Positions 17,701-29,346 of a DNA stretch of 64,000 nucleotides are shown here, in pieces. The translations under genes and the position numbers were made by a program. Under the pieces are notes generated by a model. That model was given only the letters and a program-made list of their open reading frames with translations, was not told the DNA's origin and did no database searches. This DNA comes from Cyclobacterium marinum DSM 745 (GTDB lineage: Bacteria > Bacteroidota > Bacteroidia > Cytophagales > Cyclobacteriaceae). The stretch lies in contig NC_015914.1 in the NCBI RefSeq assembly GCF_000222485.1, positions 372,001 through 436,000 on the forward strand, given 5' to 3'. The number at the start of each line of letters is the position of its first letter. The stretch's first letter is position 1.

Positions 17701-18993
17701 TTACCCGAGTAAATACTTTTTAAACTGCTCGTAATCATTTTCCATAAAAGTAACCTTTTTCTCACCTTCCATAAATGCAGCTAATCTTTCTGGCAAAACC
17801 AAAGCTTCCCCCAGAGCATCTTCAACGGTACTTCTAAATTTACCCGGATGTGCAGTTTCCAGAAAGACTCCTTGATAGGTATCAGGGTACTTGTCCATAA
17901 AAGCTTTAAGGCCAAGGTAGGCTACAGCTCCGTGTGGATCCATGGTATAGCCTGTTTGGGCTTTCACATTTACCATGGCTTCTTTTGTGCTTTCATCGGT
18001 GTAGAAACAGCCTTGAACTTTTTCCTTTAATTTCTCTTCATCTCCGCCAAACAAAGCCAACAACCTATAAAAATTACTTGGGTTCCCAACATCCATACTA
18101 TTACTAATGGTTTGGATTGAAGGTTTCGGAGCAAATGCCTGTCCACTTAAATAATCGGGAACCACTTTATTCACATTGGTTGCGGCAATAAACATATCTA
18201 TTGGCAAACCCATTCTTTCCGCCAATATTCCCGCTGCTAAATTCCCAAAATTACCACTAGGTACAGAAAAAGCAAGTTTTTTGTTCTCTTTTGGCAATCT
18301 TGAATAAGCATAAAAATAATACAGGCATTGAGGAATCCACCTGGCTATATTAATTGAATTGGCAGAAGTCAGTAAAAGTTTACTGTTCAATTCAGGATCC
18401 AAGAAAGCCTCCTTCACCATTTTCTGGCAATCGTCAAAAACACCTTCTATTTCAATTGCATGAATATTTTCACCCAAGGTAGTAAACTGCTTTTCTTGGA
18501 GTTCACTTACTTTACCAGAAGGATAAAGGATTACAACTTCAACACCCTCCACACCCAAAAAACCATTGGCCACCGCACTTCCTGTATCCCCGGAAGTAGC
18601 TACAAGCACCTTTATGGCTCCTTTATCCTGAAGCATACTCATTAATTTGGAACAAAACCTGGCCCCAAAATCCTTAAATGCCAATGTTGGTCCATGGAAG
18701 AGTTCAAGTGTAAACACATCCTGCTCTACCGGCACCACAGGAGCATCAAAATCCAATGTATGGTCAACCAAGGCTTTGATTTGGTCTTGGGATAAATCTT
18801 CGGAGAACAATGCTGAAATGACCTTATAGCCAATCTCCTTAAAAGAAAGCTTGTGTATGTTTGAAAAAAAATCCGAATTCAAAACCGGAATTTTTTCAGG
18901 CATGTAAAGTCCTTGATCAGGAGCCAACCCTTTTATAACAGCCTCTTTTAAATCTACTTTATGATTCGGATTATTGGTACTATAATATTTCAT
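17701..18993 (-). CDS. thrC: Threonine synthase
   Basis: A 430-residue PLP-dependent threonine synthase, which converts O-phosphohomoserine to threonine. The N-terminal YYSTNNPNHKVDLKEAVIKG and GLAPDQGLYMPE are typical of this enzyme. The PLP lysine lies in GPTLAFKDFGARF near residue 108, with ATSGDTGSAVANGF and VPSGNFGNLAAG as phosphate and substrate loops. It is the last gene of thrA-thrB-thrC, 25 bp after thrB. Regulation of the whole operon is expected from the threonine-rich leader ahead of thrA. Confidence 0.96.
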   Translation of the reverse strand: MKYYSTNNPNHKVDLKEAVIKGLAPDQGLYMPEKIPVLNSDFFSNIHKLSFKEIGYKVISALFSEDLSQDQIKALVDHTLDFDAPVVPVEQDVFTLELFHGPTLAFKDFGARFCSKLMSMLQDKGAIKVLVATSGDTGSAVANGFLGVEGVEVVILYPSGKVSELQEKQFTTLGENIHAIEIEGVFDDCQKMVKEAFLDPELNSKLLLTSANSINIARWIPQCLYYFYAYSRLPKENKKLAFSVPSGNFGNLAAGILAERMGLPIDMFIAATNVNKVVPDYLSGQAFAPKPSIQTISNSMDVGNPSNFYRLLALFGGDEEKLKEKVQGCFYTDESTKEAMVNVKAQTGYTMDPHGAVAYLGLKAFMDKYPDTYQGVFLETAHPGKFRSTVEDALGEALVLPERLAAFMEGEKKVTFMENDYEQFKKYLLG

Positions 18994-19018: not shown

Positions 19019-19963
19019 TTAAATTTCTTCTTCAACGATATACGCTCCTCTAGTATTGATAGCGGAAACATATAGATCTATGGGCAGTTGTAATTTATCA
19101 AACACTTGTTGGGAAAGCCGGCTTACCTCCCAAGCAATTTCCTCCGTAGGAGACAACACAAATAGTGTAGGTCCGGAACCTGAAATACCACATCCCAAAG
19201 CCCCAGCAGGAACAATTCCTACCTTTACTTCATCATAACCAGGAATTAAAATAGACCTGGAAGGTTCTGCTATCACATCATTCAGGGAACGGCTAATTAA
19301 GGCCATGTCTTCCTGAAACAACCCGGCCACGAGACCTGCAATATTACCCGATTGGGTTGTTGCATCTTGCAAAGTTACATTTCTTCTTAAAACACTTCTT
19401 GAATCAGAGGTATTCAATTCCAAATGTGGGTGAATCAAGGTACAATATAGTCCTCTAGGAACATGTAATGGAATGACATCTAAAGGTTGGTATTCACGAA
19501 TCAAAACGAAACCACCCAATAAAGAAGGGGAAATGTTGTCGGCATGTCCTGCACCACAAGCAATCCTTTCAGACTCAATACCGAATGGCAATAAATCCTT
19601 TTTTTCATAGGGATTTCCCAGTAGCGTATTGGTAGCTACCAAGGCAGCAACAGCACTTGCTGCACTTGACCCCATCCCACTCCCTAAGGGCAATCCTTTG
19701 TACAACTCTATTTCTAAACCACCTTCAAAACCAAGGTCTTCAACCATTGCTTTAACAGCAACACTACAGGTGTTTTTTTCTGATTCATAAGGTAACTTCC
19801 CGTTGTCACCTTCAATTTTAACAACCCGAACCCCTGGTTTATCGGAAAGGGCTACACTTACCTTGTCTCCTAAATCCTCAATTGCAAAACCTAAAATATC
19901 AAATCCGCAAGAAACATTGGCTACAGTAGCTGGTGCAAATGCAGTAACTTTTTGCTTGTCCAT
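19019..19963 (-). CDS. thrB: Homoserine kinase
   Basis: A 314-residue GHMP-family kinase that phosphorylates homoserine. The ATP loop GLPLGSGMGSSAASAVA lies near residue 92, the N-terminal motif APATVANVSCGFDILGFA is intact, and the C-terminal GCGISGSGPTLFVLSP (GHMP motif 3) is present. It starts one base after the thrA stop codon, which implies translational coupling, and precedes thrC. Length and motifs match standard ThrB. Confidence 0.96.
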   Translation of the reverse strand: MDKQKVTAFAPATVANVSCGFDILGFAIEDLGDKVSVALSDKPGVRVVKIEGDNGKLPYESEKNTCSVAVKAMVEDLGFEGGLEIELYKGLPLGSGMGSSAASAVAALVATNTLLGNPYEKKDLLPFGIESERIACGAGHADNISPSLLGGFVLIREYQPLDVIPLHVPRGLYCTLIHPHLELNTSDSRSVLRRNVTLQDATTQSGNIAGLVAGLFQEDMALISRSLNDVIAEPSRSILIPGYDEVKVGIVPAGALGCGISGSGPTLFVLSPTEEIAWEVSRLSQQVFDKLQLPIDLYVSAINTRGAYIVEEEI

Positions 19964-19964
19964 A

Positions 19965-22412
19965 TTATCTTGAATAATTACCTAACCTAATAATATCTGC
20001 AAATACGCCTGCCGCGGTCACATCTGCTCCTGCACCAGGCCCTCTTATGATCATAGGAAACTCGTGGTACCTTTCTGTTGTAAACAAAATCATATTGTCA
20101 CTTCCTTCCAAAGAATAAAATGGATGCTTTTTGTCAACAGATTTTAATCCTACTTCAGCCTTACCATTCTCTAATACAGCCATAAACCTAAGGGTTTCTT
20201 CTTTTTCCTTGGCTTCCTCAACCAAACTCTTGAAGTGGGGATCATGCGATTTTAACTTTTCCAAAAATTCCTCTACCGATTCAATATCTTGGCAGTCCTC
20301 AGGAACCATACTCTGAATACTTACATCCGAAAAATGTAAATCTTGTTCCGCTTCTCTGCCTAATATTAGAATTTTTCTCGCTACATCCATCCCGCTTAGG
20401 TCATCTCTTGGATCCGGTTCAGTAAATCCTTTTTCCTTGGCTTGAGTTACCACTTCACTAAAGGGAGTACCTTTGCTCAACTCGCTAAAGATATAATTCA
20501 TTGAACCACTTAGCACACCTTCTATTTTGAGCACTTTGTCTCCACTTAATATAAGATCTTGTAGGGTACTGATAACCGGTAGTCCTGCAGCTACATTGGT
20601 TTCATAAAGAAACTTGATATTTCTTTGGCCTGAGAGTTTCTTCAAAGATTTGTAGTTTTCCAAAGAACTTGAATTGGCTTTTTTATTGGGTGTAACAATA
20701 GCCACCTTAGAAGTAAGAACCCTTTCGTAGGTATCTGCCACATCTTGGCTTGCAGTACAATCTACCAATACAGAATTGGAAAAGTTCATACTGTTCATTG
20801 TATTCAAAAATACAGTAAGGTCCATGGGTAAGTCTTCGCTAGAAGGGACAGGAATGGAACTAAGATCAAAGCCATCTTCATCAAAAGCCATAAAACGAGA
20901 ATTCGCAAGTCCATGGATCTTGATATCCAGCATATAATCCTCTTGCAATTTATTCAATTGATTTTGAATCATTGAAATCAAGGTCTTACCGATAAGCCCA
21001 ACTCCAATCAGAAAAACGTGCAATACTTTATTGTCAGAAAGGAAAAAGGCCTCATGCAATGCGTTTAGGCCTTTTTGCAGGTCAGACTGTTTAATTACTG
21101 CAGAGATATTTAGTTCTGAACTTCCCTGAGCCACTGCCGAAACGTTAATATTGTTTCTCCCCAGAGCTTGGAAAAGCCTCCCGCTTGCTCCCGGGTGGTG
21201 TTTCATGTTTTCACCTACCACAGCAATTACAGACATGTTGGGCATGATTTGAACTTTGTCCATCTCACCGGCAAGTATTTCATAATGAAACTCATTCTCC
21301 AAAACCTCACGAGCCAGATCTGAATTTTCACTTTTTATTGCAATACAGATACTATGTTCTGAGGATGCTTGACTAATTAAGACAACATTGATATCTGCTT
21401 TAGCCAATGTTCCAAAAACTCTACTACTTACCCCAATCACATCTACTAAACCTGAACCTTGAACATTTAATAGGCTGATATGATTTAAGGATGAAATCCC
21501 TTTTATTAACTTGGTATTTTCCGGTTTTTCACAAATAAGGGTACCTTCCTCCTCCGGCTGGAAAGTATTTTTGATATAAATTGGGATCTTTCTCTTCATC
21601 GCGGGTTGCATGGTTGCCGGGAAAACCACCTTGGCACCAAAATGAGAAAGTTCCATTGCTTCATTGTAACTCAATTGAGGGATGGTGATGGCAGAATAAA
21701 CCAACCTTGGATCTGCAGTCATTACACCAGTCACATCAGTCCAAATCTCCAAACTATCGGCTTTCAGGGCCGCTGCAAAAATTGCTGCAGTATAATCGGA
21801 TCCACTTCTTCCTATGGTAGTAGTTTCTCCCTTATCGGTAGAAGCCACAAAACCGGTTACAACAAGAACTCCAGGGTTTTTGCTGTAATAATCATAGATC
21901 AATTGATTGGTTGTAGGGAAATTTACCTTGGCATTTCCAAAGCGGTCATTGGTTCTGATAACTTCTCTGGCATCTAAATAATGTGTACTGATTTTATTTT
22001 CACGTAAGGCCTCAGCCATAACATAAGTGGAAATTCGCTCACCGAAACTAACGACATAATCAGAGGTTCTGGGAGAAAACTCTTTAATCAAGAATATACC
22101 ATTAAACAGATCTTCCAATTCATTGAACCTGACCTTTACAAAGGTCAATACTGCAGACTGCTTTCTTACAGGTATTAAATCCTTTACAAGTTGAAGATGG
22201 CGCTTTTCTAAGGAGAGTAAAAGCGCTTGGTATGCCAGGTCATTTTCTTTGGCAAGATGAGCACACTTCAATAGGTCTTCGGTAACACCACCAAAAGCCG
22301 AAAACACGACTGCTATCTGATCATCTTCGGATGCTTTCTTTACGATAGAAAGAACATTCTTAATTCTTTCCAAATTGGCGATGGATGAACCTCCAAATTT
22401 TAATATTTTCAT
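19965..22412 (-). CDS. thrA: Bifunctional aspartokinase/homoserine dehydrogenase
   Basis: An 815-residue fusion catalysing the first and third steps of threonine synthesis. Residues about 1-300 are aspartokinase (MKILKFGGSSIANLERIKNV; GRSGSDYTAAIFAAAL; EIWTDVTGVMTADPR). About 310-460 hold two ACT domains for feedback binding (LNVQGSGLVDVIGVSSRVF and MSVIAVVGENM). About 465-810 are homoserine dehydrogenase, with HVFLIGVGLIGKTL as the NAD(P) loop, TPNKKANSS, and GVLSGSMNYIFSELSKG with EPDPRDDLSGMDVARK. It heads the operon, 84 bp after a Thr-rich leader ORF, so expression is probably controlled by charged tRNA-Thr supply as well as by allosteric threonine. Confidence 0.97.
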   Translation of the reverse strand: MKILKFGGSSIANLERIKNVLSIVKKASEDDQIAVVFSAFGGVTEDLLKCAHLAKENDLAYQALLLSLEKRHLQLVKDLIPVRKQSAVLTFVKVRFNELEDLFNGIFLIKEFSPRTSDYVVSFGERISTYVMAEALRENKISTHYLDAREVIRTNDRFGNAKVNFPTTNQLIYDYYSKNPGVLVVTGFVASTDKGETTTIGRSGSDYTAAIFAAALKADSLEIWTDVTGVMTADPRLVYSAITIPQLSYNEAMELSHFGAKVVFPATMQPAMKRKIPIYIKNTFQPEEEGTLICEKPENTKLIKGISSLNHISLLNVQGSGLVDVIGVSSRVFGTLAKADINVVLISQASSEHSICIAIKSENSDLAREVLENEFHYEILAGEMDKVQIMPNMSVIAVVGENMKHHPGASGRLFQALGRNNINVSAVAQGSSELNISAVIKQSDLQKGLNALHEAFFLSDNKVLHVFLIGVGLIGKTLISMIQNQLNKLQEDYMLDIKIHGLANSRFMAFDEDGFDLSSIPVPSSEDLPMDLTVFLNTMNSMNFSNSVLVDCTASQDVADTYERVLTSKVAIVTPNKKANSSSLENYKSLKKLSGQRNIKFLYETNVAAGLPVISTLQDLILSGDKVLKIEGVLSGSMNYIFSELSKGTPFSEVVTQAKEKGFTEPDPRDDLSGMDVARKILILGREAEQDLHFSDVSIQSMVPEDCQDIESVEEFLEKLKSHDPHFKSLVEEAKEKEETLRFMAVLENGKAEVGLKSVDKKHPFYSLEGSDNMILFTTERYHEFPMIIRGPGAGADVTAAGVFADIIRLGNYSR

Positions 22413-22439: not shown

Positions 22440-22613
22440 AACAAAAGCCTGTGAAAGGCCTCCTTTGTCGGGGGCAATATGTAGGAATGCACGGGATTAC
22501 CCCGTAATACCTGTAGTTGTGGTGGTATTGCCACTAAAAAATAGACTGCAGTCGATTGACCGAAAAGATTCGGTGAATGAAATTTCTTGAATTTTGTTTA
22601 CTGCGAAAACCAT
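22440..22613 (-). promoter_or_regulatory. Candidate threonine attenuator ahead of thrA
   Basis: Leader RNA structures around the leader ORF. A 5' strand GGCAATA (22532-22526), just before the Thr codons, can pair with TATTGCC (22479-22473), enclosing the Thr run and stop codon. A hairpin ATTAC-GGG-GTAAT overlaps the stop. Nearer thrA, GGCCT can pair with AGGCT, backed by ACAAA/TTTGT with a bulge, giving a moderate hairpin ending in T-rich DNA. Stalling at Thr codons would cover the first arm and change the fold. The final hairpin is weaker than in enterobacterial attenuators, so the exact mechanism is inferred. Confidence 0.6.
22497..22613 (-). CDS. Threonine operon leader peptide candidate (38 aa)
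   Basis: A short ORF from the ATG at 22613 to TAA ends 84 bp before thrA. It encodes 38 residues whose end is SGNTTTTTGITG-stop: five consecutive Thr codons (ACC ACC ACA ACT ACA), then Gly-Ile-Thr-Gly. Such a Thr/Ile run just before a thrA gene and followed by alternative RNA stems is the hallmark of ribosome-mediated attenuation, as with thrL of enterobacteria. The N-terminal half (MVFAVNKIQEISFTESFRS) shows no signal. The peptide itself is probably not functional; its translation is the sensor. Confidence 0.75.
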   Translation of the reverse strand: MVFAVNKIQEISFTESFRSIDCSLFFSGNTTTTTGITG

Positions 22614-22979
22614 GATTGATCGTTTGAAGGGACAATTCTAAGGACAAATTTTATATATCACAAGTTTTTTAGATTAGAAATCCCTTATTCAATAAAGATT
22701 AAAAAACTGATAACCACTCAAACAAGTTCCTTCATATCGATTATCATTGAATTATTTTGATTTTAACAAAGCTTTTTAGCACCAAAAAACCTTAATAGAG
22801 CATATTAAGCCTGTTCACATACCCAATAATAAAAAAAGTTTGGTTTTATGAATGGAACGAAAGGCGAAAACCAAGCTGAGATAGAATTTTAATAATGGTA
22901 ATGAAATTTTCCATTCATAAAAGGCCTTGAAAAACAACATGAAAATGAACATGCTATTTTTCAACGCCAATACCACATG
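22614..22979. other. 366-bp region: GIN-gene terminator and expected thr promoter
   Basis: The right half holds the terminator at 22831-22874 and a larger inverted repeat (22844-22857 with 22909-22922). The left half should contain the thr promoter reading leftward. I find no exact TAnnTTTG; an imperfect candidate on the minus strand lies around 22645-22655. Confidence 0.5.
22831..22874 (-). terminator. Terminator after the SDR/head-GIN operon
   Basis: On the minus strand, TTGGTTTT (22874-22867) pairs with AAAACCAA (22847-22840) and is followed by AC and seven T residues. It lies about 105 bp past the stop of the leftward head-GIN gene. A competing, longer 14-bp inverted repeat, TTTTATGAATGGAA (22844-22857) with TTCCATTCATAAAA (22909-22922), overlaps one arm. 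Confidence 0.65.
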
Positions 22980-29234: not shown

Positions 29235-29308
29235 GGGGGATTAGCTCAGTTGGCTAGAGCGCTACACTGGCAGTGTAGAGGTCATCGGTTCGAATCCGTT
29301 ATCCTCCA
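29235..29308 (+). tRNA. tRNA-Ala (anticodon GGC)
   Basis: A 74-nt cloverleaf. The acceptor GGGGGAT (29235-29241) pairs with ATCCTCC (29301-29307, one G-U); the D-arm has TAGCTCAGTTGGCTAGAGC; the anticodon arm is CTACA-CTGGCAG-TGTAG with GGC at the anticodon; the T-arm is TCGGTTCGAATCCG-like. The discriminator A is followed by no encoded CCA. It decodes GCC/GCU alanine codons. It has its own promoter and terminator. Confidence 0.95.
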
Positions 29309-29313
29309 CTTTT

Positions 29314-29346
29314 GGTTTCCAGCTATAGTTGGAAACCTTTTTTTTA
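29314..29346 (+). terminator. Intrinsic terminator after tRNA-Ala
   Basis: A 10-bp stem, GGTTTCCAGC (29314-29323) with GTTGGAAACC (29328-29337), one G-U pair, with a TATA loop, is followed by eight T residues. It lies 5 bp past the tRNA. Confidence 0.92.

Follow-up and report, generated by a model that had tools for sequence, protein, structure and literature searches.

A threonine-rich leader peptide with a hairpin at its stop codon ahead of thrABC in Cyclobacterium marinum and other Cyclobacteriaceae

The thrABC operon of Cyclobacterium marinum DSM 745 is probably controlled by a leader peptide responsive to threonine (or threonine and isoleucine), in a non-canonical version whose output step, polymerase pausing or Rho, we infer from sequence. 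That the short open reading frame (ORF) ahead of thrA is a leader peptide serving the thr operon is near certain, and control by the supply of Thr-tRNA is very likely; a hairpin at the leader stop codon (hairpin A) that would be sensed by the ribosome, with a pause or Rho step, is our best inference. The analysis started from a window, that is, the whole analysed stretch of 64,000 nucleotides, in a genome consisting of one contig of 6.22 Mb. The features of the locus, in window coordinates, are as follows.

22661..22663, minus strand: TTG, candidate -33 element by sequence, 20 nt before the -7 box
22633..22640, minus strand: TAGAATTG, candidate -7 promoter box, at a conserved position
22497..22613, minus strand: Thr leader peptide ORF, 38 codons, 117 nt including the stop, with codon-position bias
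22559..22574, minus strand: hairpin P0 inside the ORF (ACCGAATCTTTTCGGT), possible polymerase pause hairpin, with coevolving arms
22512..22526, minus strand: five Thr codons, ACC ACC ACA ACT ACA, the sole run of five ACN codons in the window
22491..22505, minus strand: hairpin A, ACGGGG-UAA-UCCCGU, with the leader stop in its loop, in 58 of 61 loci
22472..22481, minus strand: CATATTGCCC box, 9 nt downstream of hairpin A, ATAT or ATAC in 42 of 61 loci
22440..22469, minus strand: hairpin C (stem around GGAGGCC..GGCTTTT), weak terminator candidate, in 46 of 47 loci
19965..22412, minus strand: thrA, bifunctional aspartokinase-homoserine dehydrogenase I (NF006959, 1057.4 bits, cut-off 726)
19019..19963, minus strand: thrB, homoserine kinase (TIGR00191, 208.6 bits, cut-off 168.25)
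17701..18993, minus strand: thrC, threonine synthase (TIGR00260, 289.2 bits, cut-off 167.1)

The sequence-only reading had spoken of a fused thrA-thrB-thrC operon; the three genes are adjacent ORFs, and the fusion is that of aspartokinase and homoserine dehydrogenase within thrA alone. The closest named thrA, 98% identical, was that of Cyclobacterium sp. 1_MG-2023. Upstream of the leader ATG, at a distance of 23–30 nt, a box TAnn[AC]TTG was found in 58 of 61 loci, with a spacing of 27 nt in 36 of the 58. It reads TAAGATTG, TAGAATTG or a near form, is absent in three loci (L019–L021), and belongs to a type that we take to be the Bacteroidota -7 promoter element. The TTG at 22661..22663 may be the -33 element, going by the Bacteroidota promoter consensus.

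The leader ORF exists as the sequence-only reading had claimed: it starts with ATG and ends with TAA, 84 nt before the thrA ATG (22412). Its full peptide is MVFAVNKIQEISFTESFRSIDCSLFFSGNTTTTTGITG, with the C-terminal end SGNTTTTTGITG-stop. Searching both strands and all frames of the 64 kb window, a run of five ACN codons was encountered once, at the leader ORF, and a stop preceded by at least six Thr in 12 codons also once, at the same place. In 20 first-order Markov sequences of 64 kb each, with the dinucleotide make-up of the window, the means were 0 and 0.05, respectively, which bears out the earlier suspicion that five successive Thr codons are improbable by chance.

For comparison with relatives, as the earlier reading had proposed, we assembled 63 loci, made up of 56 named ones, the window and another six from the family (window, L005, L015, L018–L021 and L033–L088). 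L041 and L047 were dropped as their first 100 nt around the core were identical to another locus, leaving 61 loci, whose counts are not independent because relatives share ancestry. Left outside the count were L001, identical with the window, L002 and L003, which encode other aspartokinases, L004, L006–L014, L016 and L017, which duplicate named loci, and L022–L032, which were inspected. A mini-ORF was found in all 61 Cyclobacteriaceae loci, open ahead of thrA and running into a shared core ACGGG. The last 12 leader codons contained on average 5.1 Thr; the leader ended with Thr-Gly-stop in 59 loci, with Ile at position -3 in 55 and Thr at position -5 in 53. In 61 pairs of close loci whose ORFs are equally long, the last 15 codons had 30/31/96 substitutions at codon positions 1/2/3, and the remaining leader ORF had 179/140/200. 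The third-position excess in the last 15 codons indicates that the Thr tail is kept as a peptide code; by this sequence measure it is under coding selection, and the ORF is presumably translated. That the ORF arose by chance, and that the RNA hairpins alone matter or nothing does, is therefore very improbable: the first part of the ORF, with its small codon-position bias, would agree with such a reading, but the third-position excess of the tail, the frame open in every locus and the single Thr run per 64 kb all speak against it.

The genome also has leader peptides ahead of hisG (ending HHAGHHCS-stop), ilvD (MLVVVSLVVLIVIII-stop) and trpE (MKNQNQNWWWLSYFF-stop; L149, L150 and L153), and these his, ilv and trp leaders are kept in many relatives. 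Among 30 fetched loci of each kind, leaders were recognised in 25 for his, 18 for ilv and 28 for trp. Across the class, thrA of the same type was present at E ≤ 1e-150 in 62 of 247 genomes of the class, our own included. From 60 class thrA upstream regions (51 of the 61 places other than our own genome, and nine from another search), 25 passed the threshold for a Thr/Ile leader, six of them in the family and 19 outside it, compared with 2.6% of shuffled sequences and 1 of 60 reverse strands.

Hairpin A, absent from the earlier reading, is the most conserved structure of the thr leader. A hairpin at the stop codon was present in 58 of the 61 family loci (11% of shuffles), in 14 of the 25 class-level thr leaders (7%) and in 7 of 25 his leaders (9%), and in the control leaders in 1 of 18 for ilv (6%) and 0 of 28 for trp (7%). 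ATAT or ATAC followed this hairpin after 5–16 nt in 42 of 61 family thr loci (shuffles 2.5%), 8 of 25 class-level thr leaders (2.0%), 4 of 25 his (1.2%), 0 of 18 ilv (0) and 0 of 28 trp leaders (0.4%). Using a wide definition of hairpin plus box, the numbers were 55 of 61 (3.9%) and 13 of 25 (1.6%) for family and class-level thr leaders, respectively. The sequence of the box is not uniform, as 19 of the 61 thr leaders lack the hairpin or have no ATAT or ATAC at its place; in most Algoriphagus loci the box is AGTACCC. In two loci of the Algoriphagus group (L080 and L088) the leader stop is gone from the hairpin loop and the ORF extends by a few codons, with the hairpin retained.

Within the family, hairpin A reads ACGGG..CCCGT and hardly varies. 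Testing covariation on 42 Cyclobacteriaceae sequences, 94.8% of the cells were paired, one pair had changed on both sides, and each measure was reached by 30 to 222 of 500 shuffles; since the hairpin is nearly invariant there, covariation within the family gives no evidence for it. What speaks for it is its position, the shuffle controls and the other hairpins found in its place elsewhere, which are AACCC..GGGTT or alike in several members of other orders and CATGCCC..GGGCATG in two members of a different family within the order. With such different sequences in the same place, the structure at the stop codon appears to have persisted while its sequence changed. Base pairing of at least 6 bp between the box and the Thr codons is possible in 17 of 61 loci, a count that has no control, and the pairing between the box and the last codons, which would be a competing structure, coevolves (z -4.2, third among 1081 window pairs). 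A covariance model of hairpin A and box, applied to 30 first-look candidates per genome, gave matches at E ≤ 0.001 in 3 genomes, our own included, out of 194 from the order; it missed two relatives known to carry hairpin A (G146 and G175) and is no basis for estimating the spread. A string CTATTGCC in the ilv and trp leaders of our own genome was considered as the same box and rejected, as it is not constant in the ilv leaders of relatives.

Coevolution was assessed by comparing pairing energy within species to that between species for 1081 window pairs in 47 loci, which remained of the 61 after dropping 11 near-duplicates and three distant loci. The arms of hairpin C ranked first (z -5.2) and those of P0 second (z -4.7). 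The sequence-only reading had named two alternative stems, and both exist as strings. GGCCT with AGGCT is part of hairpin C, whose position is conserved and whose arms coevolve; GGCAATA with TATTGCC was discarded as a leader stem, being exact in the window, L005, L033 and L034 alone (4 of 61). Segment 2, with the linker, paired slightly better within species with the 5' arm of hairpin C (p 0.012 in the targeted test, z -3.1 in the scan), and values near -3 are weak because 5 of the 1081 pairs lay beyond z +3, opposite to the expected direction. Taken over its full length, the 271-nt region showed no unusual stability (z -0.5). RNAalifold on a MAFFT alignment gave merely three nearly invariant pairs, as the loop lengths vary. 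The best hairpin lay near the P0 position in many, not all, loci, and in the window (22574–22540, minus strand) and relatives CTG(C/T), a Cys codon, and a T run frequently stand downstream of P0; such a region may be a polymerase pause site. In L070, L072, L073 and L078, and also in L091, about 90–110 additional nt lie between hairpin C and thrA; this stretch holds a second short ORF beginning ATGAAATCGAGC or alike, whose ATG lies near the thrA start of close relatives.

A canonical terminator was defined as a perfect stem, 5 pairs or more, with 6 or more T in 8 nt after it, which 1% of shuffles contained. Most ilv (17 of 18) and trp loci (25 of 28) had one after the leader, compared with 6 of 25 for his and 7 of 61 for thr; in the window, no canonical U-tract terminator was detected between the leader and thrA, and hairpin C fails the definition. 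TTTTTT anywhere after the stop, regardless of a stem, gave a similar distribution (ilv 18/18, trp 26/28, his 4/25, thr 4/61). As ilv and trp terminators are common, those of our own genome included, this lineage uses U-tract terminators and the thr leader is mostly without one. That the lineage has leader-peptide control is also shown by the attenuator anatomy of the genome's own trp and ilv leaders. Elsewhere in the window, a tRNA gene is directly followed by a strong U-tract terminator (29235–29337, plus strand).

Equilibrium folding of whole leaders was abandoned, as the ribosome states were indistinguishable even in the trp and ilv controls, and was replaced by a test on truncated transcripts. 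The RNA was cut after the 5' arm of the terminator, with the ribosome positioned either at the regulatory codons or at the stop, and a switch was scored when pairing of the arm with upstream RNA fell by more than 0.3. Leaders with a detected terminator entered the test; for thr, the arm of hairpin C was used. Two assumptions enter the test, a footprint extending 14 nt downstream of the A site and the choice of the stall codon. A ribosome-dependent antiterminator was predicted for 17 of 17 ilv leaders; the corresponding counts of 7 of 25 for trp and 4 of 6 for his mark the sensitivity as incomplete. For thr it was predicted in 1 locus and not in the other 45 of 46. A classical terminator-antiterminator switch in the thr leader is thus not supported. 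What stands of the Thr/Ile attenuation proposed earlier is the conserved Thr leader, with Ile at -3 in 55 of 61 loci, before thrABC; the enterobacterial arrangement of terminator and antiterminator is not supported.

Downstream of the leader stop, over up to 100 nt, C exceeded G in all 61 thr loci (C/G 1.98), in 23 of 25 his, 22 of 28 trp and 3 of 18 ilv loci. At the gene starts of the window, thrA among them, the same held for 16 of 31 (C/G 0.96, 100 nt upstream). Rho-dependent sites tend toward a C-rich, G-poor composition; the excess of C is nevertheless unspecific for Rho, as trp leaders with good terminators mostly show it too.

Taken together, we propose the following course of events. 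A ribosome translating the leader would follow behind RNA polymerase. With abundant charged Thr-tRNA, perhaps also Ile-tRNA, it would enter hairpin A and be released at the stop codon; from the coordinates in the window, a ribosome on the stop codon covers hairpin A. If charged Thr-tRNA were scarce, the ribosome would stall on the early Thr codons, away from hairpin A, which could then form; counting the footprint, a ribosome on any of the first three Thr codons of the run leaves the hairpin free. The distance from hairpin A to the CAUAU box downstream, about 10 nt, roughly matches that of a polymerase pause stabilised by a hairpin. The position of the ribosome would in this way settle whether the polymerase continues into thrA. 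For the off-state, Rho acting on the C-rich, G-poor RNA past the stop, or the weak hairpin C, would be likelier than a strong intrinsic terminator, because a U-tract terminator is missing. The pause and Rho steps are suggested by geometry and composition. Against the proposal count the uneven sequence of the box, the stop codon lost from the loop in L080 and L088, the competing pairing of box and Thr codons, and the rarity of hairpin plus box in his leaders (4 of 25), though most of these also lack a terminator.

Classical ribosome-mediated attenuation as in enterobacterial thrL, with hairpin C as terminator and an upstream arm as antiterminator, would explain the leader peptide and its position, the conservation and coevolution of hairpin C, and the pairing of segment 2 and linker with its 5' arm (p 0.012, z -3.1), and six class members carry a U-tract form of this kind. 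However, 54 of the 61 family loci lack a canonical terminator, a T run alone is rare too, and the ribosome-dependent switch was predicted for a single thr locus among 46, compared with all 17 ilv loci; we therefore consider this explanation unlikely. Hairpin C may nevertheless be a weak intrinsic terminator in some species, namely in those of the 7 of 61 loci where a hairpin is followed by at least 6 T in 8. Control at the level of translation, in which the leader ribosome would alter the folding near the thrA start and any effect on transcription would be secondary, appears improbable. It would be in line with a leader stop located about 60–105 nt before thrA in most loci, and a precedent is toiL of E. 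coli, whose upstream ORF controls translation, with Rho termination being secondary (PMC12121999). Yet the four family loci L070, L072, L073 and L078 keep the leader and hairpins A and C despite the approximately 90–110 extra nt before thrA, and the final 20–30 nt ahead of thrA look, by eye, unconserved between genera. The preferred reading thus remains a leader peptide responsive to Thr (or Thr/Ile) with a pause or Rho step.

Across the class, the 25 thr leaders comprised 13 with hairpin plus box (wide definition), 6 with a canonical terminator, 6 with neither and none with both. The six with a canonical hairpin and U tract are L104, L111, L120, L122, L124 and L129. In L111, L120 and L125 (the last falls below the Thr/Ile threshold) the leader end, GGAGGA or GAGGAA, can by eye pair with the 5' arm of the terminator, and these three are, as far as sequence tells, the classical form of the attenuator. 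L106 combines a stop-codon hairpin with a long bulged terminator and lacks the box; its terminator was recognised by eye and missed by the detector, which demands a perfect stem. Only tentatively, and with considerable doubt, can it be suggested that in much of the class thr leaders and a few his leaders use a stop-codon hairpin with a CAUAU box about 8–12 nt downstream in place of the antiterminator-terminator pair, where the polymerase would pause at the box and then be released by Rho or escape, depending on the position of the ribosome.

The thr leader is a variant of known leader-peptide control. The E. coli thrL leader peptide is rich in Thr and Ile and lies before thrABC, and the arrangement directly ahead of thrABC is alike here. 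In contrast to thrL, the Cyclobacteriaceae thr leader is mostly without a canonical terminator or predicted antiterminator, and has its stop in a hairpin loop and a box downstream. The Rfam model of the enterobacterial leader (RF00506, Thr_leader) gave no match at the gathering score and was absent from the four matches obtained when E values up to 10 were allowed; nine other leader loci likewise had no Rfam match at the gathering score. In the E. coli trp leader the stop codon lies between the arms of the 1:2 pause hairpin. Leaders of this type share with the thr leader the stop codon between hairpin arms and a possible pause site close downstream, whereas most thr loci lack the 3:4 terminator and U tract. 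In tnaC, mgtL and corL, which are linked to Rho, the position of the ribosome on a short ORF governs a downstream gene without an intrinsic terminator; the likeness extends to toiL, but all four sense other signals, and here the putative signal would be Thr supply, with a putative role for Rho.

In the open-licence literature on leader peptides and attenuation in Bacteroidota we recognised no description of the Cyclobacteriaceae thr leader. Thr leaders of Bacteroidetes may be listed in Lopatovskaya 2010 or Vitreschak 2004. For Flavobacterium psychrophilum, of the same phylum as Cyclobacterium, PMC9723704 reports 'strong clues' of leader-peptide attenuation before amino-acid operons and several 5' elements without an Rfam match; in its main text neither 'threonine' nor 'thrA' occurs. 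Leader-like sORFs are also mentioned for Bacteroides thetaiotaomicron.

Within one family of Bacteroidota, leader peptides thus exist for Thr, His, Ile/Val/Leu and Trp; a further 19 members of the class, outside this family, carry Thr leaders. The canonical leaders (ilv, trp) and the mostly U-tract-free ones (thr, most his) in the same genomes offer a natural comparison, which bears on how the position of the ribosome steers the polymerase without an intrinsic terminator. If the proposal is true, amino-acid attenuation would, in the hairpin-plus-box element, have a form that needs no U tract and is specific to Bacteroidota.
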